A stretch of 64,000 nucleotides of DNA from Apoderus coryli (taxonomy: Eukaryota; Arthropoda; Insecta; Coleoptera; Attelabidae), in the NCBI GenBank assembly GCA_911728435.2, contig OU452211.1, positions 5,642,001-5,706,000 on the forward strand, written 5' to 3'. Below are positions 4,091 through 57,099 of this stretch, piece after piece (position 1 is the stretch's first letter; each line of letters starts with the position of its first letter). The translations under genes and the position numbers were made by a program. The notes below the pieces were generated by a model, which saw nothing but the letters and a program-made list of their open reading frames with translations, did not search any database and was not told the origin of the DNA.

Positions 4091-4319
4091 ACGACTGAAA
4101 ACAACTACAATCATTTCTAAATTATTTACTTTGAAGAAAAACGGGATTTCAAAAACACTATCTTATTTATCAGAACTAAATTCCTCACTAATCGTTTGCG
4201 TTTTTTGTTGAAATAAAAACTGCAGATACGTGTAGGAAAAGAATTTACACCGTTTATTTTAGTCTTTTCATTCATTCAGTTTGGTTGCTTCTCAAGTTAT
4301 TTTACTTTTACCGTACAAA

Positions 4320-20700: not shown

Positions 20701-23700
20701 AACGTGATAGCTCTTATTCACTCTAATTTTCAACGAAAACAGGGTAAAGTGCGGCACGGATTTCTGACAATCAAAACAAAAATATGCCATGTGTCTTAAC
20801 ATACGTTAAGTAGTCAGTGCAGGGAAACGTTTAACTTTGTTGAGGCTTCTTTGAAGGAAAACATTTTTAAAATAGTTCCCAAATCGACACTTTTTTTCAT
20901 TAAAGTAAAGAAGAGTTAGAAAAGAAAACAGATTTGTGTGTTATTCTTATGGAATCTACTCGCTTAAACAACATACTAACTTAAAATGCACTGCTGCCAG
21001 AATGTCTTTCAAATTATCTTTTTCCTACACCTCGTACTTATTATTTCCGCAATAGCGTAATTAATCCGAAATCTATTTACACCCGAAACACGTTCAGATG
21101 CTTATTTAAACATAAACTCAATTTCACCAAGTTTATTTTATCTTTGCTAAAATAATTTCGTTGTAGAAAAAATTCCATATTAATTATATTTCATTCAATT
21201 CATTCAAAATCTGGCAACAATCAAGAAAAGATGGGAAATTCGGTGATGCCACACTTTATTTGAAGATTTTCACCATAAACATATTCCACTACATTTTCTT
21301 CAATAAATCCACACATTACACAATAGATTTACACATGGAACATTATTAGATACTTGATTTTCCAATAAATATAATTTACTCAACTCCCACAATAATATAA
21401 CAAATATTAAAACATTATTTGATCTAAAAAAAACTACTAATTTATACTTATTTTTATTTTACTACTATTCACATGAACTAAATCTGGCAGAATTGTTTTT
21501 AAATGACACATTTGGCTTTCGAATATTGGTTTTTTACCGTCCTCACCAGACGGGCTACAATTTCAATAATAATAAAAAAAGTTGAATGAACTGTGTCATA
21601 GAGATGCAAGAAATGTATCGATATAATCTTGCTTCCATTATGATGATGATCTTTCATTATGATTCTGCTTCGTTACCCAGGTCATGTATTTTAGATCTTA
21701 CCGGGAAAGTTTTGCAGTGACACAACCTAAGAGCCCTCTGTTTAATATTATTTTCTTTGATTTACTGTAATTTACATACTTCAGGGTATTTGTCTAGTGT
21801 TTTATCGAAATATGCTGTCATTAAATCAAGCTACATTTCCTAGAAGTCCTTATTCGTTTATCCGTCTCTGTAAGAGCCACAAAACAGAAGGCATTAAAAT
21901 ATTTTATGATGACAATTATTTATGAACCGCGAAGTTTTTCAACAACAAACAACAATAAATAAATGCAGACATACATATACGTATTGGAGGAAGTCAATTA
22001 AGTATTCGAGTACATTTTATTGCTATCGATAATGGCAGGCAGTGCTATTACATTATTATATGTGCATATTAAATTAATGTAATATATTATAATATGTCTA
22101 TGCGATATTAATAATGAAGATAACTGCAAACAACTTTGGGATATATTGCGAAGTAATAAAAAAAATAATAATTAATTTTTGTTACAAAAATCGAAGCAAT
22201 TATTCCCGAAAACTGTGGGAAGTCTCTCGGGTGCCGATAGCCGCATGCGAAGCAATTCAATTCAATTTACTTACCAATAACTCAACAGAGAGTTTTAATG
22301 AATAATGTATTTTATTTGATATACTCTTTTCCAGAATTTAGAGTAAATAATGTTTAATGATTGTTTTGAAATACGTTTAAGAAAACGAAAAATATACATG
22401 AAGGATGCAAATTATATTTGTAATAATACTGTACCCTTGCTGGAACAGTTAATGTGAAAACCAGTTTATAAAACCTCAACCCTGAAGTCTTGATATTAAT
22501 GATTGTTTCTTTTTTTTTTCAGCTCACAAATATTGCGGTGTCAAATTAACAATTCATCAAAAAAATCAACATTTAAATCAAAAGAACGACGTCAACGCCA
22601 ATCAATGTTTTGTTGCTACAGAGATCTCTGCAACCATATCGATAGTCCCCAAACTAGAATGTTATTTAACAACAGTTTAATAGGTAAGTTACAAGACTAA
22701 GCAGAAAAGAACTAATTTCTTTCCTGCTTTCTTTAATTAATTACTCCAAACTAAATGATCCTTGCGATTATTTATCTTGCAACTCTGACCAAACAGCTCA
22801 AGGATATCCTGGCAGACTTTAAGCTAACATGCGCGTGCAAGATGCAAACTCGTCAGAAAGCTTCTTCGCGATCCCAACGAGAATATTACAAAAAATATCG
22901 TGATTGATTTAAGTTTTATTTCAATTGAATTGGCAGATCATTTTGGGTTTTGGTTGGTCCGCGGGTGATGTGTAGTGATTTTGCAAAACATCGTCCAGGA
23001 TGAACCAAGCAGGACTTCCTGATACAGTCGGTTATGTTTGAAGTTTGGTTGAAAGTTAATTCTGCGAGAAGAGACAAAGAAAAAGTTGATTTAATGCTGC
23101 CGTCCAATGAACAAAATTATTTAAGATACTCACAGTCGAATATTAAAAAGGTCAAATTCCATAGTATTATTAAATTAATGATCTTTTCATTTGCAGATGA
23201 TACTGATGAATCGGAAGACAATCCAGTTTTACACAGTCGAAAAGAAACACACCTGTATTCAAATTCTGAAGTATGGTTCCGAGCAGCGACGATTGCTGTT
23301 CCAATTTGTGGTGCTGTGATATTATTAGTTTTAATTGGTTTGGCTGTGAAAATTTTGAAAAACGAAAGTCAACATTCTATCAATTTACATAAATTAGGGT
23401 AAGTAGAAATAAAAATAAAGATTCTATTCCATCAACTATTGATATAGTCATCTCTGCATCACATGATTTTCAACAAGTCACTTTCTCAGATGACTACTGA
23501 AGAATTTTGCATCATGATCTTCACCTAAAAGCTTCCAAAATTCAGATTATTCAAGAGCTCAAACATGTCAATCAAAACAAAATGTTAGAATTTCACGCGC
23601 AATAAAAACAAACAAGTATTGCTTCAAACACGTTGAATCCCAAGCACCTTTTGGCAAATGTATTCCCCCTTCCGTCCAACGACCTCCGATAACTACGCTG

Positions 23701-27110: not shown

Positions 27111-27481
27111 ATCTATTAGAGAAGATTTGCAGAGCCTTTAAAGCTGCCTGGCTGTCTGAGCATAATATATTATGAGCTTCTTGGTATAACCACCAAACCA
27201 TGGACGATTATGTTATCATAGGTCCGACTACCACAGTGTACAATTTTACTGCACGAGATTTTGTCAAATAATGGGTGGCACCAACTTGAGTAGCATAAGA
27301 AAACAGATTTATAGGATGTGAATAAATTATGATATTTCTTGAAGTAATCAATTACGAAGAGTTCAATGTATATGTAAATCAAAGAATGTCTACTCCGCAA
27401 AATTATTTATATTATTTCAGTACACAATTTCTCGTCCCACCATATATACATTTTAATTTAAAAAAAAAGTAAAAAATTTAA

Positions 27482-27659
27482 GAATTGCTTGTTACATAAA
27501 GCAACAAGACTTTAAGTTATGTTGGAAATTTATTTCACACTACCATGCTTCCACCAGACGGCCGTTTCGTCGATCCACGACTCATCAGTGGTGATCGGCA
27601 GGCAGTGTGACCTAAACTTCCAACATTTACAAAGAGCTTATACTAGCACGAGAATTGAT
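27482..27659 (-). repeat. Hammerhead-bearing repeat, copy B
   Basis: The - strand runs CGTGCTAGTATAAG, CACTGCCTGCCGATC, the ribozyme, GCATGGT, AAATTTCCAACATAACTT, AGTCTTGTTGC, ATGTAACAAGCAATT. The same order occurs at 30860-30982 (+) and in both arms of the element at 38430-38890. It abuts the palindrome at 27660-27760, whose arm is also the terminus of the 38430-38890 element. Confidence 0.8.
27552..27594 (-). ncRNA. Type I hammerhead ribozyme, copy B
   Basis: Read on -: helix I CACCA/TGGTG (plus a T-G pair), core CTGATGA, helix II GTCG-TGGAT-CGAC, GAAA, very short helix III (AC/GT), cleavage site GTC. Compared with the copy at 30891-30935 the third helix II pair is C-G instead of T-A: both sides changed together, which supports a selected RNA fold. 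Embedded in a repeat, not in a gene. Confidence 0.85.
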
Positions 27660-27760
27660 TGAGAAAGAGATGTTTGTGGCGACACCTAGCGTGAACAGGC
27701 AATATGCAATATGCATATTGCCTGTTCACGCTAGGTGTCGCCACAAACATCTCTTTCTCA
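27660..27760. repeat. Perfect 48-bp palindrome with 5-base loop
   Basis: Arms 27660-27707 and 27713-27760 are exact reverse complements around AATAT. The arm contains TGTTTGTGGCGACACCTAGC, related to both termini of the foldback at 38430-38890. It reads as two element ends joined head to head. Confidence 0.92.
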
Positions 27761-28148
27761 AAGTAAAAAATTTTGGTTCTGGTTTTGTATAGACCTGTCT
27801 GTATTTTGACCTTCCTAAATTCTATGCAGATATAGACTGGTAAACGAAATAAATTAATAATAAATGCTGACCACAACCATTAGAAACTCAAAATCTTTGT
27901 TATTGTTCTCTGCTTTTAACTTAATTTTTAATCTGAATGTGTAATGTCTTTGCGCGTTGTTTATATGTAATTATATAAGTTTAAAACAAAAAATAATAAT
28001 AAAATATAGCATCTCTGCCAATAATAATTAGAAACAAAAAAGAAAATGTTTTATATAACAAGGATTTAAAATCTACATGTTGAAGCAAATAAGTTTTTGT
28101 TATTGTTTTTCTGACTGATATCTCTACCACGATCTTTAATCTCTTTTG

Positions 28149-28341: not shown

Positions 28342-28556
28342 TATAGGGAGAGAAAATATTCACTTAAAGTGAGTCAACTTGTAGTTGAATAATAACTGCA
28401 CAGCTTTGGTAGCTTCGTGGGTTCGATTCCCACCTGAAGCGAATGTTTTTTCCAGCTTACACACGTTCGTTTTCTTCATTGAGTTTCTATATAATATATA
28501 TAGTTATTATTCAACTACAAGTTGACTCACTTTAAGTGAATATTTTCTCTCCTATA
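28342..28556. repeat. Inverted repeat (~54-bp arms) enclosing a tRNA-like half
   Basis: Arms at about 28342-28397 and 28502-28556 (GAGAGAAAATATTCACTT, AAGTGAGTCAACTTG, TTGAATAATAACT) match with one extra G. The enclosed 100 bases hold a shortened tRNA-like unit (28403-28440). Confidence 0.88.
28403..28440 (+). repeat. tRNA-like unit, internally deleted
   Basis: Acceptor 5' strand GCTTTGG and TAGCTT, then directly the T arm GTGGGTTCGATTCCCAC and acceptor 3' strand CTGAAGC. The D loop, anticodon arm and variable loop are missing. Confidence 0.7.
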
Positions 28557-28620
28557 GGGAGTTGGAGGAGACATTGGTATAATAGTATCGCGTTTATGCA
28601 CTAGCACTACTATCACCAGT

Positions 28621-28691
28621 GCTTCGGTAGCTTAATGGTAAAAGCAAATTCCCGGAAAGCGTGAGACGTGGGTTCGATTCCCACCTGAAGC
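28621..28691 (+). tRNA. tRNA-like sequence (71 nt), probably tRNA-derived repeat
   Basis: Cloverleaf parts: acceptor GCTTCGG/CTGAAGC (7 bp, one G-T), D stem GCTT/AAGC, T arm GTGGG-TTCGATT-CCCAC. Pol III A box TAGCTTAATGG (28628-28638) and B box GGTTCGATTCC (28671-28681) are intact. The anticodon stem is poor and the loop is CCGGAAA (GGA in anticodon position, but C instead of the invariant T33). A short variable loop does not fit a Ser tRNA. More likely a tRNA-derived repeat than a working tRNA. Confidence 0.5.
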
Positions 28692-28713
28692 GAATGTTTT
28701 TTCCAACTTACAG

Positions 28714-28860
28714 TTCGAAGACATCAAAAACACAGATTACGTCGCAGTGTTTCTTCTATTGCATGTCCTGCACGTCGTATTAAATATAGTTTAATACGAC
28801 GTGCAGGACATGCAATAGAATAAACACTGCGACGTGGTCTGTGTTTTTGATGCCTTCGAA
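28714..28860. repeat. Long hairpin: 71-bp arms, 5-base loop
   Basis: Arms 28714-28784 and 28790-28860 pair at 67 of 71 positions around TATAG, with two of the remaining able to form G-U pairs in RNA. Lies between two tRNA-like units. If transcribed it would give a near-perfect double-stranded RNA. Confidence 0.92.
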
Positions 28861-28963
28861 CTCAAGGTCGACACAACAGCAGAACCACAAAATAGCATAG
28901 CGTTTGTGAGTTGGAGGGGACATTGGTATAATAGCATCGCGTTTATGCACTACTATCACCAGT

Positions 28964-29034
28964 GCTTCGGTAGCTTAATGGTAAACGCAAATGCCCGGAA
29001 AGCGTGAGAGGTGGGTTTGATTCCCACCTGAAGC
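28964..29034 (+). tRNA. tRNA-like sequence (71 nt), second full copy
   Basis: Same layout as 28621-28691, with a better anticodon stem (ATGC/GCGT) but a changed D stem and TTTGATT in the T loop. The preceding ~45 bases (ACATTGGTATAATAG, ATCGCGTTTATGCAC, TATCACCAGT) also match the 5' flank of the first copy, and the 3' flank (GAATGTTTTTTCCAACTTACAG) is shared. So the repeated unit is larger than the tRNA-like core. Confidence 0.5.
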
Positions 29035-29094
29035 GAATGTTTTTTCCAACTTACAGACGTTCGTTTTCTTCATTGGGTTTCTATATATATTTTA

Positions 29095-30301: not shown

Positions 30302-30859
30302 AAAAAATTTTTTAACACTCAATTTTATTTATGTGAATATTATACAATGGTGACCAGACCAAAGAAGCATATACGCCTAGAGCGCACCATAGAGTTGTAA
30401 AGAGTTAAGGGACACTTGGTGTTTGTAAAATTTTTTGGGATCTGAATAATTCTCAGTGAATTCAAAGTAATTTTCTGAGAAATGGTAACTAAAGGTTAAG
30501 TCGCTGTCACCAAACCTCCATGCCTTTACCTTTTAAGATTTTCCGTAAATTATACATTAATATAGAGGCGTGACGCCAATTTGTTTGTAAGTACGGGCCT
30601 GCCTACTCCTTACAATTGACAGACTACGAATGTTGTTTACATTTCAGCGCTGTAAATTTGCCATTTTGTCGATTATGCTTTGCGTGACAATACATCAGTA
30701 AAGAAGTGCAAAATGCACATTTTGCATTTATGCATTTTAGTGTTTTTCTGCATATGCACTATAGTGCAGATAATGAAGTATATTCAGGCAAAAAAAATTA
30801 CATCAATAATTGTTAGAAATTCCTAATTATATACGTAACAAACATCTTGTTGTCTTTCA

Positions 30860-30982
30860 ACTCTCGTGCTAGTATAAGACTGCCTGCCGATCACCACTGA
30901 TGAGTTGTGGATCAACGAAACGGCCCGTCTGGTGACAGCATGGTGGTGTGAACCAAATTTCCAACATAACTGAACCTAAATA
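30860..30982 (+). repeat. Hammerhead-bearing repeat, copy C
   Basis: CGTGCTAGTATAAG, CTGCCTGCCGATC, ribozyme, GCATGGTGGTGTGAACC, AAATTTCCAACATAACT. It lacks ~30 bp found in copy B between the first two motifs and lacks the terminal palindrome arm. It sits between A/T-rich DNA with TGCAT motifs and the hAT fragment. Confidence 0.8.
30891..30935 (+). ncRNA. Type I hammerhead ribozyme, copy C (canonical core)
   Basis: Helix I TCACCA/TGGTGA (30891-30896 and 30930-30935, perfect), CTGATGA (30897-30903), helix II GTTG/CAAC (30904-30907 and 30913-30916) with loop TGGAT, GAAA (30917-30920), helix III ACG/CGT with three-base loop, cleavage after GTC at 30929. Every conserved core position of the family is present, so self-cleavage of a + strand transcript is expected. 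Type I topology with minimal helix III is known from Penelope-like elements and animal retrozymes. Confidence 0.9.
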
Positions 30983-32198: not shown

Positions 32199-32411
32199 CT
32201 ATCTGCTGCCTGATAGACCTGAGGATGTGCTACCTCTATTCACTCGTTCCAAAATTGAGTTGACGTACGCCTCATGTATTTGTTTGGTGAACTCTGTATT
32301 GTGTTTCAACAGATATATTAGAGCTTGGGCTAATTGTTTTTCGGTTAGCATTTCGACACTATCGCAATGCTGCCCATCATCAAACGTTGTCGAAGTTGTG
32401 CTAGGAATATC
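32199..32411 (-). CDS. Dcp1: Dcp1 exon 5: trimerisation domain
   Basis: Acceptor TCATTTTCAG is at 32412-32413 on -; stop TAG is at 32199-32201. 70 residues with the amphipathic helices that let metazoan DCP1 trimerise. Confidence 0.95.
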   Translation of the reverse strand, partial: DIPSTTSTTFDDGQHCDSVEMLTEKQLAQALIYLLKHNTEFTKQIHEAYVNSILERVNRGSTSSGLSGSR

Positions 32412-35400
32412 CTGAAAATGATAAACAGATTTCGACTTAGTAAAATTATTATATTGTAACAAATGTAATAGTATATTAAGTATCAAGGGCGGTAAAGCAT
32501 AAGCATAAGATTTTACCGCCAGTGGTGCTTTCGCCTGCCTCTTCATAAATTAGAAATACAATATTAAACCAAAAGAACTTTATTTTAATAATTAATTATA
32601 ACTGATATAACCCACACAAATTGCTCTCAATAATTGTTATTAATATTTATTATGCCTTAAGCATAACTATTGATAATTATGCTAGATGGTAAGTTTAGAT
32701 TTGAATTATTAATACATTGATTATTACTGTTAAAATTACAGTTTTCGGTATTATTTACTGTGAGCAAATTATCACTTTCTACATAAGAAAATACCGATGT
32801 CATTGGATCTTTTCGGAATATTTTATTTGCCACATTTTTCTTATTCTCTAGTGAGTTGTCCACATAACTTTCTGCTACTGGAGATGATTGCCATCCACCA
32901 CGTTTTTTTACCGCTGGCAAGTTTGCACCTGAGTCGGCGAGTAGCATGGCTGATGTGCGTCGGAAACAGTGACCGGTGTATAGGCGCGCATTAAGCTTGC
33001 TTCCCACATCACAGGCCTGCACAAGACGCGCCGGTTTGTGCGCGCCCGCTCGCCCCAAGGCGAGCTCGAATGTATCCCTTCACACGGCGCGTGTTCGCCC
33101 GTGCTACGAATTGTGTGTTTCAAGATTTTTCATGAAACAGCAGTCACTTTGAAAATGTGGCCAGAAGAGGAAAGTACTCTTGCTGCTTTTGTAGTTATTA
33201 GTGGTTTGAATTTAATAAATAGTGACAAAAATAAGAAAAACAAAAGGCGATGGTGGATGTTTAAAAATATTACCTTACACTCTGTCATCTGTTTCTCCTT
33301 ACTAGATAAGCTCTCCCCAACACCTGCTATAAACATTTTCGGTGTCATCAGTTGTGGCTTTTGAGCATTCTCCAAAAATTGCGCAAAAGGTGACGTGCCC
33401 AACACTTTCGGATGAGATTCCGGTGGCTGGATTATATTCGCATCTGTTTTTTGAATATTATTACTCTGCATAAGAAATGCTAACGGAGATGGAGAGGTAA
33501 CGGCAGTTAATGTATGAGCTGTGCTTGAATGTGGCTGTTGGTTGTTTGGAGATCTTGATAACCGGAGATTTATTGTCGCAGGATCCTGGAAAATATTGAT
33601 ACATTAAATTAAATAAATAGTGTAGTTAGTAATTATGCTAAAGTTATACTTGTGGACATAATGTGATTTTTGATTTGATATATTTTCTTTTCACAGTTTC
33701 AATACAATCTGAAAAGTACAATTTAAAATTAAGGACTTCAAAATTCCAAATATTTCGCGCTACATTAAAAAGCGACTCTGACATTTCGAGTCAAGAATAT
33801 CTACAGTGGTTCCCAACCTCTAAGTAATGGCGGACCACTACATCAAAACTTGCATCCTCGAAGGACCACACGCTAAAAACAATTGAGATAAAGACGGATA
33901 TAAACATTTTGAAGTTCCTTGAGACGATTAAGACAATTTCCAGATGGAAGTCTGTCTGTCTGTGAGTGTGTGTGTATGTATTCTTCCACGATAGCGCCTA
34001 AACGCTTTAACCAATTGAGGTAAATTTTGGTGTATGAGTTTGGAGGAGTCCTACGATGAACCCATTAGTTTTTGGTTGCAATCACTTTAGCCCTGTGATA
34101 GGGGTGGACACAACTGCTAAATTTTCATATATCAGTAGGGGTCGAGTGATACATCATTTTAAAGCATTTTTATCTGCTTTACAGCGATAGGTTACTTTTG
34201 ATATTTGCTCCCATAATTCTCGACAAAATTGCGTTTAAAATTTCACCAGGACAGCTTTTCAAAATAGTCACAGATTATTTTGAAGACATCCACACCTTTC
34301 GAGGTGGTATGAAGTTCAAGGGAGAGTAACATCTCTTCTATAATATTGTCATAATCTAAAACTCGAAGAAAAACAAATAACTTGCATAGAATGAATGCAT
34401 AGATGAAAAAGCAAAGAATACCGTAGAATGTATCGCACATCTCCTTCACGGACCCGATCAGTAAAAGATCCCACGAAACATACCCAAGGACCGCTGACAA
34501 CAAATTGTAATCACCTAATTCGAAATCATAAAAGAAGCCCTGAGGTTCCGAGCTATTCTGAAATCATATCTAAATATAAATTTAAGAGCCGACGATAACT
34601 ATCAGGATGAAACAAAATGTCCCTAGTAACATACACAAAAATTGACTCATGCCGCACGAATATCCAAGTCCAAAAGACTTCCGTTGGAATTCATAACATT
34701 GTTAATCTGGAATAAATTGTTTATAGTACACATATTTGAAATACTTTAAATCACTTGTCTTTCCGCAGGAAGGGCTCCAGGATATACCTCAGCAGTCGAA
34801 CACGTAAGTTCATTCGTCTAATACACCCTCGGAACATTAAAATCGCCCAACAAAAAATGTCCGCGCCAGGAAACCGGTCTGCACCGAACACAGTACCCCG
34901 TTTACCCGGCCCAACACGCAAAAATATCTGTTCTAACGTATAATTAGAATCCCGAATCATCAGTAATTGAGCAGATATCGGCGTTCACCAAGGTAACACA
35001 CTGGGACCACTTTTTATATTGTCTATTTGCAACTTCTCGGCTGAAATAAAATCCACCAAGCACACAACGCTTTTTGCTGATGACAGTTGAGTGCAACTTG
35101 AAACGAATGCTTGCAAAAAATGAAAGGTTATTGTTATTGGAATCAAAATGATTTAGTTTTGAACGTTGAATAAACTAACCACATGCATTTCTCGGCAAAA
35201 GAAGATGATTATAGTGTGGGAATCCGAAATGCAGAATTATTGTCACCTTGTCCAAAAAGCTGCTGTAAAGCTCCTGGGTCTCGAGGCCGACTCACTTCTA
35301 AATTTGGTACTCACAAGTTTTCATTTTTGATGTGGAAGCTGAGAAGTTTTGTTTCCGTTGGTGTATTGCGATCCTTTTATTTTGCACATGAAAACTTTGT

Positions 35401-38400
35401 GTTGTGCTATTCTATTGTGTTGTGGGGTAACTCAAGACGCATGGATGAAGTACCGATTTTGCAAAAAATTATCATTGGAACAATGATGTTTAAATTGACA
35501 AGATTTTCTTGTCGGCAGTTGTATAGATCTCAACATTTTAACAGTCAATTTATGTGTGTTCTATGTCCATTCCAACATAAATAAGTTCTCAAGCACAAAC
35601 CCAAGTATCCAACTATGAATTAAGACATGGATTAAATTTAAAATTACCTATACACACGACTCTTTCTTTCAGCTAATAATTCACTTATAATGCCTATAAA
35701 AATTTATAATAATTTCAATTTTATTACGGCCCAGGTGAAGTTTAAAATTTTAGTAAACTGAAAATAAAAGAAAATATACTGGATAAAATAAAAGTTACCT
35801 TTTGCTCAACAGGGCCGCTACCACCTGGGAATACGATAGGTACACTTCGTCTTTCTGCACTTGAACTTGGTGCAGATGTACCGTACCTAACCTGCAATTA
35901 AAAAAGGTTTTGTTTTATTTTTGTGTTGAGTCCATTCATGTGCTCGTTTATTATAACTTGACCAGATCGGCCATGAAACTTGCAACAGAACAGAAAAAGT
36001 TTTTATGCCCAATTCGTAACAAAAGAATCGGCAATAAACTGTCCCTTTTTGTTTATCTTTGTTAGACACGAGTATTTGAAGAGAGAGAACCTTTTTCTAA
36101 ATAATAGGTAGGGTACCTATAATAAATAAATACCTACTCTTAAAATTAATATCAGTACCTATTGGAAACAGCCCTACATTACGTCTTTATTTTACTGGTA
36201 TAAAATTCATGGAAATATTTCTAATTTCATTTGTCTAAATAGCAAAATGGCCAATGTGGTCAAATTATAATAAGCGGAGTATATTTTCAAATCGACAACA
36301 CCACTATAATGCTGCGACGGTGGTTCTTTCTGCACGTTAAGCATACCAGAGGGCGCGGACGTTTTTAATCCAGAAAAAAATGGTGGAGATAGAAGTTAGT
36401 GCTCAGGACATGTTCTGTGCCTCATCATTAAAATAAATACCAAGTTTTATATTATTCGGGGGTCATTAATCTTTGAATTAATGCAACTAAATCTGGAAGA
36501 AAATTAAAGATATGGTGAAAATCGACATCTGGTTGCAGTTAATCCTTGTTCTACTAGTCTGGAGGAACGGAATGCTCTCCACAAAGCCTTTAAAATATTT
36601 GATAAATACAAATTTTCCTTAGGGAAAACCAGTTTAAGGATTTTCTGACGTGATGGCATACTACAAAAGAACAACAATGTTTTAGTAATAATTTCCTATT
36701 TTAAAATATTTTTGAAACTAAAAATCATTATCAGCATTCACTCGCTACCGAGTATGGATTACTCCAACTCAGGGATTTCTGTTGTGAACCCTAAGAGGGC
36801 TAAACAGACCGATCCTCGGGCCGCAAATCCTGTCACAAAATTCGCACAACCAATCACCACCATTCATTCGCTGTTGTAGGTGTGCTGCCCCATCGATGCG
36901 TTTTCTCTCCTTTCGATTTTCGATGCTGTCTCTTCGCATCCTCATGTCGTCAACACTGCTCTTCAAGAACTTGATGGCCCTCGTAAATGGTACGCCTCCA
37001 CCTCGATCTGTCATTGGCGATCTGCTCCCACTTGTTCTTCACATCTTAGCCACACTTCTCCATGTTGGTCTTAAAAACATCCTTGTACTTCTTTTGATGC
37101 CCTCCCTGATTTCGTGAGCCGACCTTAAGCTATGAATGAATCTTTGGAAGGCGTTCCGTTGGCATGCGGATTACGTGGCCAGTCCATCGCAGCTGGTCCT
37201 TGTCAATCATCGTCTCAATGCCAGTTGTTTCAGCTTGTTCTAAAACGCTGTTTGTTCGTCTGTCCTGCCATTTAAATCCAAAAATTCTTCTACGACATTG
37301 TTGATGGTATTTCTCTAGGGTTTTTAAATGCCTCCGATAAGTTGTCCAAGACGCACAGCTATACGTAAGCGTAGGAACTACAATAGCATTATACACTCGC
37401 AACTGGGTTCGTCGATGTTATGATTATCGAAGACTCTATTCCTCAGACGGCCAAAAGATGTGCTTGCCCACCTTATACGATGCTGAATTTCATCATCGAT
37501 ATTTGCGTTCGCCGCAGAAGTCGTGCAGGAGTCGATGTATCCGGATGAATTTCTGGGGACATCCGTTGAGCTTCAATATCCTCCACAGTGCCTCAAGGTT
37601 AACACAATCGAATGCCTTGACAAGGTCTACAAAAACCCATGTATAGAGGACGATTTTAAACAGTAATGCCTATGGAAACTTGCTCATCCATAGACGACGC
37701 CATAAAAAATAATAATTGCAAAAATAAATGAGATATACAATAACAATCGACAATTTTTATTTAATAAAACACTCGAACGAAATACAAGCAAATCAACTTA
37801 ACACTATATATTATATTTTCCATGGAGTAAGAAAGTTTTTAAATGAACAAGAATCATCTGAGAGACATTATAGTAACAAAAGACAAGCTCCCGTCACTAT
37901 AACGCTTTCTATGTCTATGTCTAGCACTCTTAAAAGATTTCGACAATGCTTGGGTTCATTCCCGATAAATTTTTGAGATTCTGTTGTTAAACTGTACAGT
38001 TCTGCCACCATCGAAATTACCTACATATTTTTTTTAAATGGGTGGACAACGGGTTATTAATTCCGGCTTTTAGGGACACCAAAAATGTTTACAAAAAAAG
38101 GTTCGGTAGCAAAAATACAAATTTTGTTGTTAAAAAAATATGTTTTTAAGGTTTTTATTTTTTTACAAAGTATAACACAAAACCTTTACAAAACTATACC
38201 TAACGTAAAAACATGCTTCCTGAAACTTGTAAGAACATAAACTAAGTAACAAAATCAAACTAAGATTATTAATGCAATAAATAGAATACCTACAAAAACA
38301 ATATAATAAAAAGACATTCATATCGAAAGGAACTAAAAAGAAAGACTCTGCCAGACGAAAAATATATGTAAACAAATTTTATTATTTTATGGGATTAAAC

Positions 38401-39887
38401 TAGCATAAATCCCCACTAGATTTATATAACAAGATGTTTGTGGCGACATCTAGTGTGAGCAGGCAATATTCACAAACGATGGCCGGACGAGAAGCAACAA
38501 CTCCATCATATCCTATTGACAACGAATTCCCTGGCGGGAGGCTTTATTTATAAATTGCTTGTTACATAAAGTAACAAGACTTTTAGTTATGTTGGCAATT
38601 TGTTTCACACTACCAGACGGCAGTTTCGTTGATCCACACCTCATCAGCCTACCGATCACCGATGATGTGTTGTGGATCAACAAAACGGCCCGTTTGGTGA
38701 ATGCATGGTGGTGTGAACCAAATTTCTAACATAACTAAAAGTCTTGTTACTTTATGTAACAAGCAATTTACAAATAAAGCCTCCCCCCAGAAAATTGGGG
38801 CGCATCTAGTGTTGGCAATATAATCTGAAGGAGTTGTTGCTTCTCGTTTGTGAACTGTTCACACTAGATGTCGCCAAAACCATTTTTATATATATATTTA
38901 TATATCGATCGATAGGTCTTTTTAGCATTTTTCACAAAAAATATCAAATACAAGGTGTTCCATTTAAAAAAAATTGGGACAACCTGCCACAGATCGTTAG
39001 AAGGGGGCTTTTTAAAGTTATTGGTAAAATTTTATGATATAATCTTAACTAGCGACCGCACAAGACATTTTTTGCTGAGAACATAAATTTTTAAAATTTA
39101 ATTTCTGTCCAAATTACACAAAATTCGATTACGCAGTTGCTATGAAACTTATCTTTAATTATTGCAAGCAATCTAAAAATGTAAAAATATGTGGGGTGAC
39201 CCATTTGAAATTCTGGAGTTAAGATCGGTGCGGCACTTTTCGGACGATCTGTATTATTAACACTTAAAATAATTTTAGATTTCTTTAAAACCAAATAAAC
39301 TTTTGTATTAACATTTTTTGTTCTAAAGTCAGTAGTTTCTGAGAAAAGGTACTGTCCCCTAATAAAGTGCCCACCCTGTACAATCCTCCATCTAAGACCA
39401 AATATCCCGAAATTTCTTAAACTATCAGTGGACACACATCGAAAACAACTAACCAGCAGAGGAACCTCAGTGCAAATTGAAGTAGAAATATCATGTCCAA
39501 GCCATTTTACAGACCACGGTTAGAATATGCCAATAGTATTGGGTCTCCGTATTTTGCTAACGATAAACCTAGAAGCCTTTAAAAAAAGGTCCAAAGGAGA
39601 TTTACGACGAACATGTTCTATGAAGATCGGCAAAGAAGAGAAATTAAACAACGCTTTACAATAAGCCCTGGACGCCACGGGATATGCAAGGTCGTAGCGG
39701 GTCCTATTATATAAATATGGATCTGTATCACCTTTGTAGAAATCCAAACCAACGTGGAGACACTAAGAAACTGTATAAAAAAATACTCGTGCAGCACAGT
39801 ACACGTGATGAAGTGAATACTTCTTTCACGAGAGAGGAAGGGAATACGAATGACGGTACAAAAGGGACAACCAAAGAAGTATTCACT

Positions 39888-39928
<41 letters not shown>

Positions 39929-42900
39929 AATTTTATCAGGAAATCCAATTGATCCATTACTCGTTATAGAGAGTCGTCACATTGTGAATGCTGGGCTGAT
40001 TAATTTGTGGTCTGATTGTTGGCGAAATGGGCGACAATATAATCGGTTTTTACCGTTTACTGTCTCAAATAGCGCCTGTTAGTTTAATTACAAATTTTTC
40101 TCAATACTTAATGTATATTCTCATAATTGGCAAGCTCTATTTGATAAAATACTTTTTTCCTTTCGATAACATCAAGTTTTATTTAATAGATTATGATAGT
40201 ACCTGCTCCTGAGGAGTAATCGACCGCTGTTGTTTCTCTATATGTTCCACGCTATGAGCCGGATTCGACATCAGTCGTTGCAGTACATGAGCACCATTGT
40301 CAGCAGCCGATACCAGCGGTTGTTTCGTCGATTTCGTTTTGGAGCTACTGCCTGCTTTGGCAAAGAAATCCATAACACTTTGCGAGGTTACATCTGGCAC
40401 ACGAGGCGTTGATGAAAACGTTGGGGGGAAAGTCGTATCTTGTTTCGTTGGTGTTTTGTTGAAGTCTTCTTGGGCTTTTGACAGCATGCTGAAGATGTCA
40501 GCACCCGATTCACGCTGAAATTTTATAATCAAAAATAGAAATAAATGGTGTCCCAAACTTAACGCAAGATTTGAATTTGCCGCCATTTATGCAGTAAATA
40601 AATAAGTAAGCATTTATTGCCCAACAGAATAAATCCCTTTACAGAGCAACATATAATACAACATTATAAATAATAAACAATAATAAAGATAATAAATCAA
40701 ATTACAGCAAATTAAGTACATCCCAATCAATCAAATCAAACAAACTAAAATCAATCACAATCAAGAAACTAAACGGAATAACATTGAACAAAATGCCAAA
40801 TTAAATTCAGATGTAGACATTTACTTTCATTACATTATATTACTATTACATTAATATTACATCACACCCTAAAAAAACTACGAGCAGTCTCCATTAAGTC
40901 GTCCACCGAACAATCAAATATGTCGCAATCGTTACAGATCATATTAAAATTATTGCACATCACAAAAACTGGCGATTTCGTGTATAGATTAGTAACAGGA
41001 CGTTTGCAGTAAAACATCAATCCGTTACGACTCCCCAGGCGCTGAACATTTATATCAATCTCAGCCAGCAACTCAGAGCAATCGATTTTACCATTTAAAA
41101 GACCGTACAAAAATTGGAAAGAAGCAAGGATTCTACGGAACTCCAAACTACTGATGTTAAATCTATTCCAGAGCATCGAACTATCCCCCCCCTTTCTGGA
41201 TAGACGCCATCAGATTTATATATGAGATATTTAAGGAATTTCCTTTGAATTTTTTCAATGGCGTACTTATGGACCTCATAAATAGGATACCAGATAATTG
41301 AACGAACGTAAGAGAAATATAATGTTTTCAATGCGTTAATATTTTTAAAGTTAATATGAGGAACGAAAGACAATCTCGAGTCAAACGTAACACCCAAATC
41401 GGTAGAAGTTACACATCTCGCGAGAACATTAAATTAAAAGCCGTTTTCCTTCTCGAATAAGACATAGTTTTACACTTCTTAGCATTTAGATATAGCTTGT
41501 TATTGTTACACCAACTCTCCATCGCCTCAAGCTCCATTTGAAGACCTATGCAGTCCTCGTACGACACGATAGTGGCGAACAGCTTGACATCGTCAGCGAA
41601 ATACCACCTGTTAACTTGCAGACACTCGTTAAGATCGTTAATGAAAAGCAGGGGACCCAAGTTTGAACCCTGAGGCACACCAGAGGATGCTTTATATTTT
41701 TTGGAATTGTAGGCATTATAAACTACATACTGTAGTCTGTTCTGAAGATATGAAATAAACAACGATTTCAGGTTATTGACAAACCCATAGCTGTCCAGCT
41801 TCCGAATTAGCACCCTATGATCCAACCTGTCGAAAGCCTTGGCTAAGTCGGTATAAATAACACCCACTAGTATTGTAAAGCTCTCAATAAACGAAACAGC
41901 GTCAGCACTTTCACATATTATGTGATATGGAATATTTCCTGATCCTGAAAGTTATGACAACTATAGGCCAATTAGTTTATTACCGAATTTTTCCAAGCTG
42001 TTTGAACTGGCGATGGTCAACAGATTAACCGATTTTTTTAAGAGCTGTGATATTATCTCAAAGCGTCAACATGGGTATCTTAAAGGAAAATCTACACAAC
42101 CAGCTATATATGAGTACATTCAAGAAATCAATAAGCATTTGGAACACGGGTCTGTGGCACTTGGAATGTTTTTGGACTTGTCAAAAGCTTATGACTGTGT
42201 AAATAGAAGCTTGCTTATAAAAAAATTGGATATGTACGGTATACGCGGAAATGCTATTAAATGGTTTGATTCATACCTTAATAACAGAGAGCAACAGGTC
42301 ATAATATCCAGCTTTCGAGCCATAAGTAAATCCAGTATTGTTACTACAAATTATGGGATAGCTCAGGGAAGTGTACTGGGACCAATGCTGTTTAATGTAT
42401 TTCCTAATGATCTACATTATCGAACATCGGATAACCAGGCACTGATTATTCAGTATGCGGATGACACTAATCTATTGATTGGTGGCAAAGATGTACATCA
42501 GCTCATTTTAGACGGTACGCATTTTTTCTTAGATGTCAAGAACTGGTTTTTAAACAACGGATTAGTATTGAACGAAGGAAAAACCAAAATTCTGTTATTC
42601 AGAACCAAACCGTCATCGGTAAATAGGCCAGAAAGTACGAGTGTCCAAGGATGCACGGTTACAATCACTGATCATTGTAAGTTATTGAGATTGATAAATG
42701 GATGAGTGTTTGGATTGGTCACATCACATAAATTACGTGGTAAATAAGTTAAGTTCGGTGTGCTATGCAGTCCGGACGATCCGTAAATATTTGGATATCT
42801 GTACGCTGAAGATTCTTTATTTTGCAAACATTTTCTGGGGCGCAAGTAGCAATATTGGTTCGCATTGTGAAGAACATAAAATATGGTGAATCATGTAGAT

Positions 42901-44935
42901 CAATATTCAAGACGGAAAGAAAATGCTATTGGAATTAGAACCATATAGTCTGTATGATTATTTAAGTATGTGATCTGTATTCTTCTTGACGTCATTTTAT
43001 ATCATGCTTTGTAAACATGTATTGAAATAAAGTTATTATTAATATTATTCAGCATCAACAAATGGGTGCTGATTTTTCGAGCAAAATCATCCTAAGCGAC
43101 AGAGCACATTTTCACCTCGATGGGTTTGTTGGGGTCCTGAGAACCCACATGTGATTGTCGAAAAACAAATGCATCCACAACGTGTCACTCTTTGGTGTGG
43201 ATTTTAGGCTGGAGGCATAATTGGACCATACTTTTTTTGAGAATGAGGCTGGTCAAGCAGTGACTGGTACTAGTGCTTGATATCGCGACATGATAACACA
43301 GTTCTATTTGCCGAAATTGGATGATATTGATGTGGCCAATATGTTGTTTTGAACAAGGCGGTGCCACATGTCATACAGCCCGTGAAACACTTCAATGACT
43401 GCATGAGACACTTCCAGGTCGGTGCACTCTCTCGTTTCGGAGATCAGAATTGTGATTTAACACCATTAGATTTCTTTTTATGGGGATATAGGTCTATATC
43501 AACAAGCCCCCAACCACGCGTTCATTAAAGGAGGAGATTCAACGCTGCATCAACGAAATTCACCTACATTTATGCAAAATGCTCATGGGAAATTTCGACA
43601 AACGAGTGCGTATGTGTATGCAAAGCCGTGGAGGCCTTTTGCCCGATGTGTTATTCCCTAAATAACCCTATCCTATGTCCTTTATGATTCAATAAAAAAA
43701 GTTACAATCAAAAGACTAAAAACTGTGTATTCTATTTCATTCAAATCTTGCATTAATTTTGGGACACCCTCTATTAGATCAACTTGAGTGGAAGTGTAGA
43801 GGCGTTAGGACTCAAAATCGGCACAAATTTGGTTTCGCATGAACTTGAATTAATGGAGGTTGTGGATCATGGTTGTCAGCTGGATTCGGTGTATACCGAT
43901 TACGCAAAGGCATTTGACGTTAATACATTATACAGGATAAAATACCAACTTTGACGCCAATCTCACAAACGGTGCCCCAAAAAAATATTTTGTGTACGAC
44001 ACTGAATTCCGCGTAAAAAAATTTATCAAAAACAGTTTTCACATTTTTAGTATCTTACATGGGATGTGATATAATGATAACACTCCAAAAGGTGAACATT
44101 TTCGTTTTCACCCTGTATCTCACGAACAAAAGCTTGATCAATTCTGTTTGCCGCATTAAAAATACTCAAAAAAGTTCCACAGGGTCGCGAAAACCGCAAA
44201 TTTCTATCTTTATTAACAGCTGACACACCCTGCAGTCTCAACCAAAATAGGACACAGTGTACTATAATCACTTGGATTATTGTATGCTACACAGTTTGTT
44301 TTTAAAATTTAAAAATATTAGTCAAAAGTTATAATAGCCTCATGCGGGGACAAACAAATTATACTATACACTTAAATTAACCAATAAAAACTAGCTCTGC
44401 AAAAAAAGTTGCATGTTAACTTTTAACATAACATAAAAAAAGTGTAAGTACCAAATAAATTCTTTAGGAATTTTTCAATAATTTATACACTTACTCCATT
44501 CTGTCTCTTATCCAAAATCCGTCTGGGGCCCTGTTTATCTTCACTCTTATCTCTCGAACCCTCCATGATAGATTCGATTAGGAAGGCGATTCTTATGCAC
44601 TCCTCTCTATTGAAAAACCATATACCAAATATTTTGTTCTTAGAATTTCTATATAAAAGAAATGGAACTTGCATCTGATAGTCAAAATCTTTCACAATTG
44701 GCTCTATGAAATTGTCCTTGTTCAGTCTATTCAACACCATCAGGCTGTTGTATGGTTCACCATTACGGCTGTAAAGGAATAGGGCGCCTTCTTTGTCAGT
44801 TTTCTCCCATTCATTGGTTGCTAAATTAAACTTATATAAGGCAACTTGTGTCGCGGTGGCAATTAAGTCTTTCACGTAAGGATCTACTCTTTTAATACAG
44901 GTCACACTTGCACGCAACTCAATCGAATCAGCCAT
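32199..44935 (-). CDS. Dcp1: mRNA-decapping enzyme 1 (Dcp1), five exons, 456 aa
   Basis: Co-activator of the DCP2 decapping enzyme in cytoplasmic P-bodies. Exons on -: 44935-44495, 40514-40203, 35891-35799, 33585-33274, 32411-32199. Residues ~1-135 form the EVH1 domain (DPYVKDLIATATQVALYKF, NEWEKTDKEGALFLYSR, VPFLLYRNS, IFGIWFFNREEC). Residues ~151-165 (GADIFSMLSKAQEDF) resemble the helical Leu-rich motif of metazoan DCP1. LMTPKMF at ~361-367 resembles its short motif I. The C-terminal trimerisation helix region is ~408-439 (LTEKQLAQALIYLLK, IHEAYVNSI). All splice sites are GT-AG and all introns are phase 0. Introns (3980, 4311, 2213 and 862 bp) are filled with transposon remnants. Start is the first ATG, directly before the EVH1 fold. 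Confidence 0.97.
32660..33020 (-). pseudogene. Tyrosine recombinase C-terminal fragment (Crypton-like)
   Basis: The - strand reads LYTGHCFRRTSAMLLADSG, then LPAVKKRGGWQSS and PVAESYVDNSLENKK. HxxR (HCFR), the later Trp and the Tyr nucleophile (ESYVD) fit the end of a tyrosine recombinase as in animal Cryptons. Only this end remains; the upstream GC-rich part is unrelated. Lies in Dcp1 intron 4, same strand. Confidence 0.65.
33128..33262 (+). pseudogene. PIF/Harbinger-like N-terminal fragment
   Basis: The + strand reads MWPEEESTLAAFVVISG, then NKKNKRRWWM, like the start of PIF/Harbinger transposases (acidic/hydrophobic start, then KRRWW). It breaks off just before Dcp1 exon 4 begins on the other strand. 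Very short, so tentative. Confidence 0.35.
33274..33585 (-). CDS. Dcp1: Dcp1 exon 4
   Basis: 312 nt; acceptor ATTTTCCAG and donor GTAATA on -. Low-complexity linker rich in Ser, Thr, Pro, Asn with SPFAQFLENAQKPQLMTPKMF near its end. Confidence 0.93.
33960..34190 (+). repeat. Dispersed repeat with TCTG-rich start, copy of 19950-20190
   Basis: Starts with TCTGTCTGTCTGTGAGTGTG, CACGATAGCGCCTAAACGC, then the shared core (GTAGGGGTCGAGTGATACAT). In Dcp1 intron 3. The start resembles that of the array at 46261. Confidence 0.75.
34240..34553 (-). pseudogene. Possible insect chemoreceptor (odorant receptor-like) exon fragment
   Basis: On - an AG acceptor (ATGATTTCAG) is followed by an open segment: YDFELGDYNLLSAVLGY, a hydrophobic stretch FYGILCFFIYAFILCKLF, DYDNIIEEMLLSLELHTTSK, then stop. 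Two membrane-like segments and the IEEM region look like the N-terminal part of an insect odorant receptor, but the match is weak. It lies in Dcp1 intron 3. Confidence 0.3.
34930..35640 (+). pseudogene. LINE reverse transcriptase remnant
   Basis: Decayed pieces on +: IGVHQGNTLGPLF, TTLFADDS, ISRQKKMII, AAVKLLGLEADS, then RSFYFAHENFVLCYSIVLWG and MDEVPILQKI. Many stops and frameshifts. In Dcp1 intron 3, opposite strand. Confidence 0.7.
35799..35891 (-). CDS. Dcp1: Dcp1 exon 3
   Basis: 93 nt, phase 0 on both sides; acceptor TTTTTAATTGCAG, donor GTAACT. Encodes VRYGTSAPSSSAERR and VPIVFPGGSG, a linker segment. Confidence 0.88.
35892..36739. other. Dcp1 intron 2, first part, no gene
   Basis: AT-rich, no domain recognised. 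Confidence 0.5.
36740..37660 (-). pseudogene. LINE with C-terminal C2H2 motif, truncated
   Basis: The - strand begins with RT motif FVDLVKAFDCVNLEAL (near 37620), is interrupted, and resumes with VYNAIVVPTLTYSCASW, LRWTGHVIRMPTERLPK, NQGGHQKKYKDVFK, NDRSRWRRTIYEG and the terminal zinc finger FCDRICGPRIGLFSPLRVH. This tail is typical of a LINE group widespread in animals. Internal deletion, frameshifts and stops. In Dcp1 intron 2, same strand. Confidence 0.82.
37680..38429. other. Dcp1 intron 2, no gene
   Basis: AT-rich. The open frame 37728-37976 on + has no recognisable motif. Confidence 0.5.
38430..38890. mobile_element. Foldback element of the hammerhead repeat family, copy D
   Basis: A ~460-bp inverted repeat. 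Outer termini carry GGCGACATCTAGTGTGA and its inverse (near 38442 and 38858-38873). Inner arms (about 38530-38650 and 38690-38795) carry TTGCTTGTTACATAAAGTAA and its inverse. Each inner arm contains a decayed hammerhead, one per strand, head to head near the centre. The - strand one keeps CTGATGA and GAAA but loses helix I pairing. The + strand one has GATGATG and a CAAAAC change. Non-autonomous; no ORF. Confidence 0.85.
38891..39504. other. Dcp1 intron 2, no gene
   Basis: Contains CAAGGTGTTCC near 38953 and CCACCCTG near 39371, possible ends of a decayed ~425-bp transposon. No coding motif. Confidence 0.35.
39505..39640 (+). pseudogene. LINE C-terminal fragment
   Basis: YRPRLEYANSIGSPYFAND, a shift, then KVQRRFT and YEDRQRRE: the region after RT in CR1/L2-like elements. 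Short and decayed. Confidence 0.5.
39787..39925 (+). repeat. Copy of the 30085-30301 repeat, ending in an (AG)n microsatellite
   Basis: CGTGCAGCACAGTACACGTG, GAAGTGAATACTTCTTTCACGA and inverted AAAGAAGTATTCACTT. AG dinucleotides run from about 39890 to 39925. Confidence 0.75.
40203..40514 (-). CDS. Dcp1: Dcp1 exon 2
   Basis: 312 nt, phase 0 on both sides; acceptor AAATTTCAG, donor GTACTA. Begins RESGADIFSMLSKAQEDF, then a Ser/Thr/Pro-rich linker (QSVMDFFAKAGSSSK, VLQRLMSNPAH). Confidence 0.95.
40592..41880 (-). pseudogene. LINE reverse transcriptase and 3' end
   Basis: The - strand reads IYTDLAKAFDRLDHRVL, SGVPQGSNLGPLLF, WYFADDVKLF and ESWCNNNKLYLNAKKC, then in other frames VTFDSRLSFVPHINF, KIQRKFLKYLIY and the C-terminus to stop near 40862. 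A ~270-bp 3' UTR ends with a TAAATAAATAAGTAAG-type tail at about 40592. Frameshifts near 41400 and 41180 and an RT lacking part of the FLLFIND region. 5' truncated. Confidence 0.87.
41930..43045 (+). pseudogene. LINE reverse transcriptase and 3' end
   Basis: NYRPISLLPNFSKLFE, KRQHGYLKGKST, MFLDLSKAYDCVN, YGIAQGSVLGPMLF and IQYADDTNLL lie in one long frame (42013-42705). After a frameshift come DECLDWSHHINYVVNKLSS and AVRTIRKYLDI. Ends with an AATAAAGTTATTATTAAT tail near 43045. 5' truncated, placed head to head with the LINE at 40592-41880. RT core nearly intact. Confidence 0.88.
43050..43664 (+). pseudogene. Decayed D,D41D-type transposase
   Basis: KIILSDRAHFHLDGFV (first Asp region), NPHVIVEKQMHPQRVTLWCG, GIIGPYFFENEAGQAVT, DMITQFYLPKLDDID, EQGGATCHTARETLQ (second catalytic Asp replaced by G), CDLTPLDFFLWG-like segment, end GGLLPDVLFPK. 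Multiple frameshifts and stops. Related to, but well diverged from, the intact family at 4320-5393. Confidence 0.78.
43850..43925 (+). pseudogene. Short LINE RT scrap
   Basis: ELMEVVDHGCQLDSVYTDYAK... through AFDV: one RT motif only. In Dcp1 intron 1; the rest up to 44494 shows no gene. Confidence 0.45.
44495..44935 (-). CDS. Dcp1: Dcp1 exon 1: EVH1 domain
   Basis: 147 codons from ATG at 44933-44935 to the donor GTAAGT after QNG. Holds the whole EVH1-like fold, very close to vertebrate DCP1 (QVALYKF, EWEKTDKEG, PFLLYRN, IWFFNREEC). Confidence 0.97.
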
Positions 44936-45499
44936 GATTTGATTTTGATTTTTTTTTATTTAATGTTATGATTCAATATGTCATGTGCCAACTGCCAACA
45001 TAGAATAGAATACCAAAATGAACGATATTGATATCTCCGGTCCTTTTGCAAATTTGATTGACAGTTAAGTGAGAAATCAACCTCAAAATGCTTACGCTGC
45101 TTTTGTGCGAGAGCGATTTGGAATTTTGAACGGAGATTCACCGCATTGGTGGGTGACGATCACGTGATGCCAGGGCGTAGCGGTAAATCTCGAATTCACC
45201 AAATATCTAAAAGTTGGTTAAAGTAAGTAAGCAAGTGAGGTGAGTTGCAGATAATCATATCACATAAGCCCAACTGAACAGTTCTACAAGGTTAAATTCT
45301 GACAAAACTACAATGTAGAGTTAAAATACAGAGAAGCAACCTTAACTTCTTGTCTTTTTGTTGACATTGACATTAAAGAACTACAAAGAAGTTGATATGT
45401 TTGGTCGAGTGCTAATACCATTGTGTTTATTATTATAATAAACACAATGCTAATACCATCATAATGTGATAAGGTAAGAATGTAAAGATAAGCTTTATA
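44936..45499. other. Dcp1: Dcp1 5' flank
   Basis: The presumed 5' UTR and promoter on - lie here. No TATA-like box stands out at a set distance. The section 45085-45180 is less AT-rich (TGACGATCACGTGATGCC). No other gene. Confidence 0.35.
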
Positions 45500-55499: not shown

Positions 55500-56759
55500 C
55501 AGGGTGGTCCAACGAAAAGTTTGCACCTAGCTTTTCTCTTTTTTTTGTAGTCGAATGCGAAAATGCTCGGACACGTCGATTTTGCTTTTGAGGGGGACAC
55601 ATTTTAAACATATTTTTCGATCTGCGCCTTTAACCCCCTAGCGGGGGTGAGTAACAACCCTAAAATTTTAAATGGAAAGAGGGGTCTAATGACATATCAT
55701 TTGAAAGGACACAAAATTGTCTTTCTAATGATACCCTATTTGTCGAATTTTACTAAAACAGTTAATACGAAAACGACTTTAAAGACATTAAGCCGATAAT
55801 TTTGGTATTAATGAGAAATACAAATAAGTTTTAATTATTGCGAGTGAAAACACCTGCAATCGTTAGTACATTCCAATGTTTGTTAGTTTTAACATTGCTT
55901 TGTAAAAAAAGTAAACAAGCTGTTAAATTGATTTATTAAAACGTTACATTAACAAATGTTGAAAATGTGACCCATTTGATTCCATACAATAATACAGATT
56001 TTGTTCAAATCTATTTCTAACATTTTGTAGCATATCAGGTGTTATGTTTCTGCACTCTTCTGTAATGCGTTGGCGAAGATCTTCTATGGACTCGGGCTTC
56101 GTGGCAAAACATTTATTTTTTAAGTGCCCCCAAAGAAAAAAGTCTAAAGGCGATAAATCCGGTGACCTGGCAGGCCATTCAATTGGGCCCCTCCTTCCAA
56201 TCCACCGTCCAGGGAACCGGTCATCTAAGAATTGTCTTACTGGAGCCACATAGTGCGGAGGTGCTCCATCTTGCTGGAAATAAAGCCGATCAGCAGTATG
56301 ATTTTGGTCATCTTCTATTATTTGTGTTATTAAAGGATCAATTGTGTCTTCAAGCATGTTTAGGTACACTTCACCAGTTAAATTTCCAGGAATAAAAAGT
56401 GGTCCTATAATATGATTTCCTAATATGCCACACCAGACGTTTATTTTTTGAGGATACTGGGTATGAACCTCACGGAATAAATGTGGGTTACTGTCATCCC
56501 AGTAACGGCAATTGTGCCTATTTACAGCTCCATTCAAATAAAATGTGCATTCGTCGGAAAAACAAATGTTAAATAATAATTGCGGATCTTCAATTAAACG
56601 CTGGCTCATTGCTTCACAAAATTGCAGCCTTCTATCAGGATCATCCTCATTTAGTTCCTGTACTAATTTGATTTTGTACGGATGAAATTTGTACGCTTTT
56701 AAAATTCGTATTATGGACGAACGGGAGACACCTGAGGCTTCAGCTAGTTGACGGGTACT
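55500..56759 (-). mobile_element. D,D41D transposon copy 3, truncated
   Basis: The end at 55500 matches copy 2 (48810), but homology stops at 56759, inside the transposase N-terminal region, so the other TIR and 530-bp 5' part are missing. The 16-bp palindrome AGAAAGCTAGCTTTCT lies directly at the breakpoint. Confidence 0.93.
55944..56759 (-). pseudogene. D,D41D transposase, N-terminally truncated
   Basis: Starts within STRQLAEASGVSRSS and is open to the same stop as copies 1 and 2. All three catalytic Asp are kept. Carries A and P at the positions where copy 2 has T and L, thus closer to copy 1 there. Confidence 0.93.
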
Positions 56760-56776
56760 AAGAAAGCTAGCTTTCT

Positions 56777-57099
56777 TATTCTATGTTTTGACTCAATAAA
56801 ATACTAGGTAAATATAAACAAATTATAATTGCAACTTAATAAAAAAAAGAGAGAATAAAATTATAAATCATACGGTTAAGTAATACAGTATGAAATAGCA
56901 AGAAATTCCCAAGGAAAATCCATATAATATTTTAAATACCCCTCCTTCTGTACGTCTACAAACAATTGATACCGAGTTGCACGCATCATATATCCACTGA
57001 AACTGCATTGACGTATCGATGCTGGACGATTGTGTCCTATGTTATGTAACACAAAATCTAATATACATTGAACAGTTTTATTGTTAAAAGTGTTGTGTA
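56777..57099. other. Spacer, no gene
   Basis: AT-rich. Nothing recognised. Confidence 0.5.

Follow-up and report, generated by a model that had tools for sequence, protein, structure and literature searches.

The window analysed here, a 64,000-nt stretch of the Apoderus coryli genome, carries copies of a repeat that we interpret as a non-autonomous, retrozyme-like retroelement of ~335 nt with a type I hammerhead ribozyme at the tip of a long helix I, mobilized by Penelope-like elements (PLEs), a reading to which we assign a probability of about two in three. The ribozyme anatomy, the unit, the family, the insertion ends, the target-site duplications and the polarity were all observed in the sampled copies, and the same scars occur in the PLEs of this genome.

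The copy from which the analysis started, copy A, contains a complete type I hammerhead core at 30891..30935 on the plus strand, found in the sequence, by the Rfam model RF00163 and in a motif scan, and a check of the letters confirmed that all ribozyme parts named in the initial annotation are present there in register. Helix I is formed by TCACCA (30891-30896) and TGGTGA (30930-30935), the core comprises CTGATGA (30897-30903) and a GAAA between helices II and III, helix II is GTTG/CAAC with the loop TGGAT, and helix III is ACG/CGT, i.e., 3 bp closed by the 3-nt loop GCC. The last base of the cleavage triplet GTC is 30929, and the cut is predicted between 30929 and 30930. With the core CUGANGA...GAAA...NUH, helices I, II and III, and an open helix I, copy A is a type I hammerhead. 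A scan of both strands for the core together with a helix II of ≥4 bp, a helix III of ≥3 bp (loop of 2-8 nt) and a helix I of ≥4 bp yielded two sites in the window, at 30897 (+) and 27588 (-), and the full motif was found at no site in 200 dinucleotide shuffles of the window (each at least 98% of its length).

Copy A is a truncated fragment of the repeat (30838..30974, +; unit positions ~264 to 332 and 1 to 93) that lacks ~30 nt on the 5′ side compared with copy B, and no target-site duplication was found around it. It lies downstream of the host gene for the decapping protein DCP1 (32238..44935, -), ~1.3 kb beyond the last recognized DCP1 stretch. The site at 27588 belongs to copy B, a second type I hammerhead (27551..27594, -) supported by RF00163, the alignment and the motif scan. 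Its insertion (27480..27759, -) consists of a hammerhead unit and a short inverted arm, arranged head-to-head between 14 bp target-site duplications at 27466..27479 and 27760..27773, and a repeat search revealed a perfect palindrome with 50-nt arms and a 3-nt centre at the junction (27659..27761). The two copies are 90.6% identical over 96 nt and 85.4% identical over a further 41 nt; a helix II U-A pair of copy A is C-G in copy B, a compensatory change, and helix III of copy B is most plausibly 2 bp closed by a GGCC tetraloop. A third insertion, C3 (38417..38900, the start being approximate), is made of two units head-to-head whose arms are 71% alike and sits between recognized DCP1 exons. Both of its ribozymes are degenerate; in unit C (38616..38647, -) the core letters are intact, and helices I, II and III are broken. 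We rejected an 8-bp 'duplication' of C3 since its letters fall inside the element.

The covariance-model search proposed in the initial annotation did return copy A, with an RF00163 match at 30891-30935 (+) of 28.0 bits (E = 4e-5 in a search space of 251 bases), but this score is below the curated cut-off of 34 bits, and copy A was not listed when the whole window was scanned with Rfam at E ≤ 1. Copy B scored 32.3 bits, likewise below the 34-bit cut-off. No hammerhead was matched in 20 repeat loci at the gathering cut-off, nor in 19 further repeat loci at E ≤ 1; this is a multicopy hammerhead family whose sampled copies, where scanned, all fall below the curated Rfam cut-off. MicroRNA matches on the palindromes were discarded, as they were below the curated cut-offs and were read as hairpin artefacts. 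In a nearest-neighbour model that includes neither tertiary contacts nor dimers, the minimum-energy fold of the 45 nt of copy A is a hairpin of -14.7 kcal/mol compared with -7.1 kcal/mol for the hammerhead fold; the hairpin blocks the core by pairing GAUG with CGUC, leaving hammerhead helix II a probability of 0.001, and a competing hairpin is likewise preferred in copy B. This core-blocking GAUG/CGUC hairpin of copies A and B could act as an off-switch. The predicted fold also pairs the strands flanking the copy B ribozyme, extending helix I to 33 bp with interruptions. When three units were folded as circles, all three were only mildly better than their shuffles (z -1.5 to -2.4). Hammerheads of axolotl retrozymes, which have a weak helix III, are reported to be active as dimers in the available part of PMC7229834, and by analogy with them the short helix III (3 bp in copy A, 2 bp in copy B) suggests that a dimer would be the likelier route to activity than a monomer. 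This refines the comparison made in the initial annotation: helix III of the repeat exceeds the minimal form of PLEs, which usually lack helix III in what we could consult of PMC7761336, and resembles the weak helix III of the axolotl retrozymes.

In the species' own genome assembly (428 Mb, 129 contigs), we found at least 44 matches to the repeat at no fewer than 40 loci, the copy in the window included, a lower bound with 40 of 1764 first-look candidates scored. The unit measures 332-338 nt with a GC content of 43-45%, as derived from L010, L017 and L020, the three of the first 20 loci in which two same-strand ribozymes lie one unit apart, in no case with both complete. The longest stop-free stretches in the doubled units (139, 115 and 55 aa) are not common to the units, and the unit holds no reading frame for reverse transcriptase (RT) and GIY-YIG endonuclease, for which 332-338 nt are too short. 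The core letters are kept in 21 of the 34 ribozyme units from the first 20 loci and the window, and 31 of 43 core matches were complete by a stricter motif applied to 39 loci and the window (2-nt helix III loop allowed). By this strict motif, neither the window nor any of these loci has two complete hammerheads of the same family on one strand one unit apart. The release of unit-length or circular RNA that the initial annotation expected from the copy A locus is therefore unsupported, the locus itself being a truncated fragment with one ribozyme. Only L019 has two complete same-strand ribozymes; they are 1.15 kb apart, and one comes from a divergent relative of the repeat. This relative, present at L019 (1336-1420) and L064 (587-650), has a different outer helix I that is still paired in L019 and perhaps represents a second, older hammerhead family. 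Pattern scans of IMG/VR for the ribozyme and for the repeat motif GGCGACA gave 0 matches each in a collection from which records of this genome are possibly excluded.

Covariation was analysed in 26 of the 34 ribozyme units, an alignment that omits L016, L017:2651, L018:2526, L022 and L025 (alike to the L015 row), the degenerate L018:2908 and the two C3 units. Across these 26 copies, 92.3% of 672 cells were paired, compared with 24-50% when the partners were slid, and three pairs were changed on both sides, including the helix II pair, for which U-A is replaced by C-G in 4 of the 26 copies. None of 500 shuffles matched the number of cells changed on both sides, and 2 of 500 matched the covariation score; the number of pairs changed on both sides was reached by 50 of 500 and the further pair types by 491 of 500. 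Because the shuffles equal these last two measures so often, we consider the covariation signal in the sequences to be modest.

In the first 25 insertions, on which the windows for 3′ ends were chosen, 32 of 37 sense 3′ ends cluster at unit positions 105-135 or 271-284. In a second set of 19 further loci, for which the predictions had been written beforehand, these windows again took in 22 of 25 counted 3′ ends (22 of 26 if one dropped fragment is counted, namely the L064 fragment at unit 12-56, which derives from the divergent relative); L063 was counted as two insertions, and a 45-nt piece of L061 was skipped when duplications and ends were read. Pooled, 54 of 62 3′ ends lie in the windows versus 3 of 28 5′ ends, which are scattered; since the copies share ancestry, we do not express these counts as binomial probabilities. 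In the first set, 9 of 25 insertions are flanked by target-site duplications of 9-14 bp, as are 5 of 19 in the second (14/44 in total, four of them with one mismatch and that of L011 overlapping the element's own letters), and none was found in the other 30 of 44. Head-to-head inverted insertions make up 17 of 45 (12/25 and 5/20). Both outer ends lie in the 3′ windows in 12 of these 17 (9/12 and 3/5), 10 of the 17 have one end of each kind (7/12 and 3/5), and the arms overlap in several. Against the predicted head-to-head rule, L063 consists of two copies tail-to-tail, 13 nt apart and without a shared duplication; in L064 a copy and the divergent fragment are tail-to-tail with 44 nt between them. 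The combination of internally fixed 3′ ends, 5′ ends that scatter, and duplications points to target-primed reverse transcription, and the fact that both arms of the palindromes mostly end in the 3′ windows suggests that synthesis usually starts there on each cut strand. We also noticed that, in the second set, 6 of 15 5′ ends (L055, L059, L063, L066, L067 and L072) fall at unit 303-328. These positions belong to the long helix I, on its 5′ strand, and the pattern looks as though this stem had halted reverse transcription.

The PLEs of the same genome bear comparable scars. The GIY-YIG domain (PF01541) gave 150 scored matches among 1260 candidates, and a head-to-head arrangement was seen in all 19 pairs of neighbours within 8 kb, one of which, with 6.8 kb between its members, possibly represents two distinct elements. 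Five PLE insertions, picked as close inverted pairs, were read. Their inverted arms are 98.3-99.9% identical, all five have target-site duplications (12, 12, 12, 14 and 12 bp), and in four of the five one end carries an extra 33-36 nt that the other end does not, a stretch resembling the 'tail' of PLEs in the accessible portion of PMC3846280. L049, L051, L052 and L053 form head-to-head palindromes, nearly perfect and 1.5-2.7 kb long, that have duplications of 12-14 bp. RT and GIY-YIG domains are present in both frames of L052, and Pfam recognized GIY-YIG alone in the L046 frame, the relatives of which have RT, HTH and in some cases GIY-YIG. One PLE frame has 1022 relatives, of which 120 were listed; the named entries among these 120 belong to Diabrotica, Callosobruchus, Sitophilus, Cylas and Coccinella and, in addition, to mosquitoes. 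A minimal hammerhead-like string was seen near a 3′ end in all five insertions read; we treat these strings as matches of motif letters, because Rfam at E ≤ 1 gave no hammerhead in 20 GIY-YIG loci or in L049-L053. The repeat unit showed no similarity above chance to the 20 GIY-YIG loci (lowest E 0.21 for the real unit and 0.005 among 30 shuffled units), so that no particular PLE is tied to the repeat. A dispersed multicopy family together with many GIY-YIG/RT elements of the PLE type bears out the initial annotation in assigning the type I hammerhead to an intergenic repeat with ties to retrozymes and Penelope elements.

These observations can be combined in a tentative scenario, whose steps of RNA cleavage, circularization and help from one PLE family are our inference. 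The copies would be transcribed by read-through, and the intact ribozymes, possibly in dimeric form, may cleave the transcripts 3′ of GTC. Linear or circular RNA would then be taken by the RT/GIY-YIG endonuclease of a PLE, which would make a staggered cut of ~12 bp in AT-rich DNA. Reverse transcription would be initiated within the unit, at ~105-135 or 271-284, in many cases on each of the two cut strands, and the two cDNAs would meet head-to-head while the stagger becomes a duplication of 9-14 bp. In vitro, a PLE protein is reported to cleave the two target strands and to extend each of them, with synthesis starting inside its RNA, and a mutated ribozyme left insertion unaffected in that system, in what is available to us of PMC11167929. 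The role of the ribozyme might then be trimming or circle formation, as the accessible part of PMC7229834 would suggest. A PLE enzyme that copies the RNA of the repeat is the simplest reading, and the scars common to the repeat and the PLEs of this genome provide genomic evidence for a partnership of retrozymes and PLEs. We lean slightly towards the wider view that animal retrozymes are passengers of PLEs, with two fixed internal 3′ starts (one for each cut strand), head-to-head arms and ~12-bp duplications as the scar, the ribozyme making the template and the PLE cutting and copying. As polarity, duplication length and dual 3′ ends are common to both kinds of element, the question of the mobilizing enzyme could be put to a direct test by combining a single retrozyme RNA with a single purified PLE protein.

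Other origins have to be weighed against this scenario. If the unit were a pseudo-LTR (pLTR) of an autonomous PLE, the copies would be its solo or inverted pLTRs, and the architecture is indeed similar to that of rotifer PLEs, for which the available text of PMC3846280 describes inverted pLTRs, a junction palindrome, partial tandems and duplications of 8-10 bp. The absence of similarity to the unit in the 20 GIY-YIG loci compared (of the 150 scored), and the presence of a helix III, which the minimal ribozymes of PLEs usually lack (PMC7761336, as far as available), speak against it, and we consider this origin unlikely. Mobilization by a LINE, through L1-type target-primed reverse transcription with twin priming, has in its favour that target-primed reverse transcription generally leaves fixed 3′ ends together with variable 5′ ends and duplications. 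Inverted 5′ parts can likewise arise from twin priming; however, it does not predict overlapping arms or two arms ending at preferred 3′ sites. With arms overlapping in several head-to-head insertions, with both outer ends in the 3′ windows in most of them, and with PLE copies of the same genome looking alike (the comparison having been made with PLEs alone), LINE mobilization is quite improbable.

A palindromic DNA transposon (MITE) that acquired its hammerhead by capture or chance would match the long inverted repeats of C3, and further palindromic repeats occur in the window. We rejected this reading on the basis of insertion ends and duplications: 28 of 45 insertions are not inverted, and the length of the duplications varies from 9 to 14 bp, which leaves it with very little credibility. 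Equally hard to believe is a mere hammerhead look-alike without any ribozyme activity. Scores below the curated Rfam cut-off and a competing fold that is more stable in a simple model would fit such a look-alike, but the motif did not appear in any of the 200 shuffles, the compensatory change in helix II recurs in 4 of 26 copies, and 31 of 43 core matches carry the complete motif in the 39 loci and the window.

The preferred interpretation, a retrozyme-like element mobilized by PLEs, builds on published ground, as type I hammerhead retrozymes of animals, including insects, and their mobilization by PLEs have been described and proposed, respectively, in the accessible parts of PMC7229834 and PMC7761336; the former names both LINEs and PLEs as mobilizing enzymes, with PLEs as a strong candidate. 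Like the metazoan non-LTR retrozymes of Cervera and de la Pena 2020 (PMC7229834, available portion), the repeat is a dispersed multicopy element with a type I hammerhead, and its unit length and GC content fall within their ~170-400 nt and <50%; duplications of more than 4 bp, PLEs in the same genome and, as in the axolotl retrozymes, a weak helix III are further common traits. Unlike what is described there, most copies here comprise one unit or part of one, their 3′ ends have two preferred positions, and head-to-head arrangement is frequent (17 of 45); our sample contained neither long direct arrays nor tandem pairs of intact ribozymes. With PLEs and their pseudo-LTRs (PMC3846280, PMC11167929, both in part), the repeat shares head-to-head copies, a palindromic junction, short duplications, AT-rich sites, an optional extra 3′ 'tail' and a hammerhead near the end; unlike PLEs, its unit is too short for RT and endonuclease, lacks similarity to the 20 GIY-YIG loci and has a helix III. 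Another insect hammerhead repeat with compensatory stem changes is pDo500 of Dolichopoda cave crickets, suggested in the available text of PMC2837043 to cut in single or double form; it is a satellite of ~500 bp, whereas the present repeat is dispersed, and the likeness is one of description and not of sequence. We found no report of head-to-head retrozyme insertions in the full-text collection searched, which covers a minority of subscription papers, or in the available parts of PMC7229834 or PMC7761336.

Regarding the host context, the recognized DCP1 stretches are 44935-44486, 40517-40200 and 32366-32238 (-), supported by a Pfam DCP1 match at 44483-44959 and, for the other two stretches, by tblastn of relatives. 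Three of the 16 relatives are named (Asbolus verrucosus, Diabrotica balteata and Daphnia pulex), the first two of which we take to be beetles. A neighbouring host gene is indicated by a BAMBI C-terminal match of 43 bits in the frame 23004-23402 (+), and the frame 32657-33079 (-), close to DCP1, has a weak Pfam match to phage integrase (tyrosine recombinase) of 21 bits (cut-off 27.1). The frames 4263-5393, 49254-50372 and 55944-56780 look nearly identical, and matches of 4263-5393 to the DUF4817 and Tc3-type helix-turn-helix models suggest a recently active DNA transposon. Furthermore, tRNA-like repeats at 28347-28862 and 28908-29087, with Rfam tRNA matches at 28621 and 28964, adjoin palindromes with 73-nt arms 5 nt apart and 51-nt arms 104 nt apart, and are perhaps tRNA-derived SINEs with palindromic insertions.
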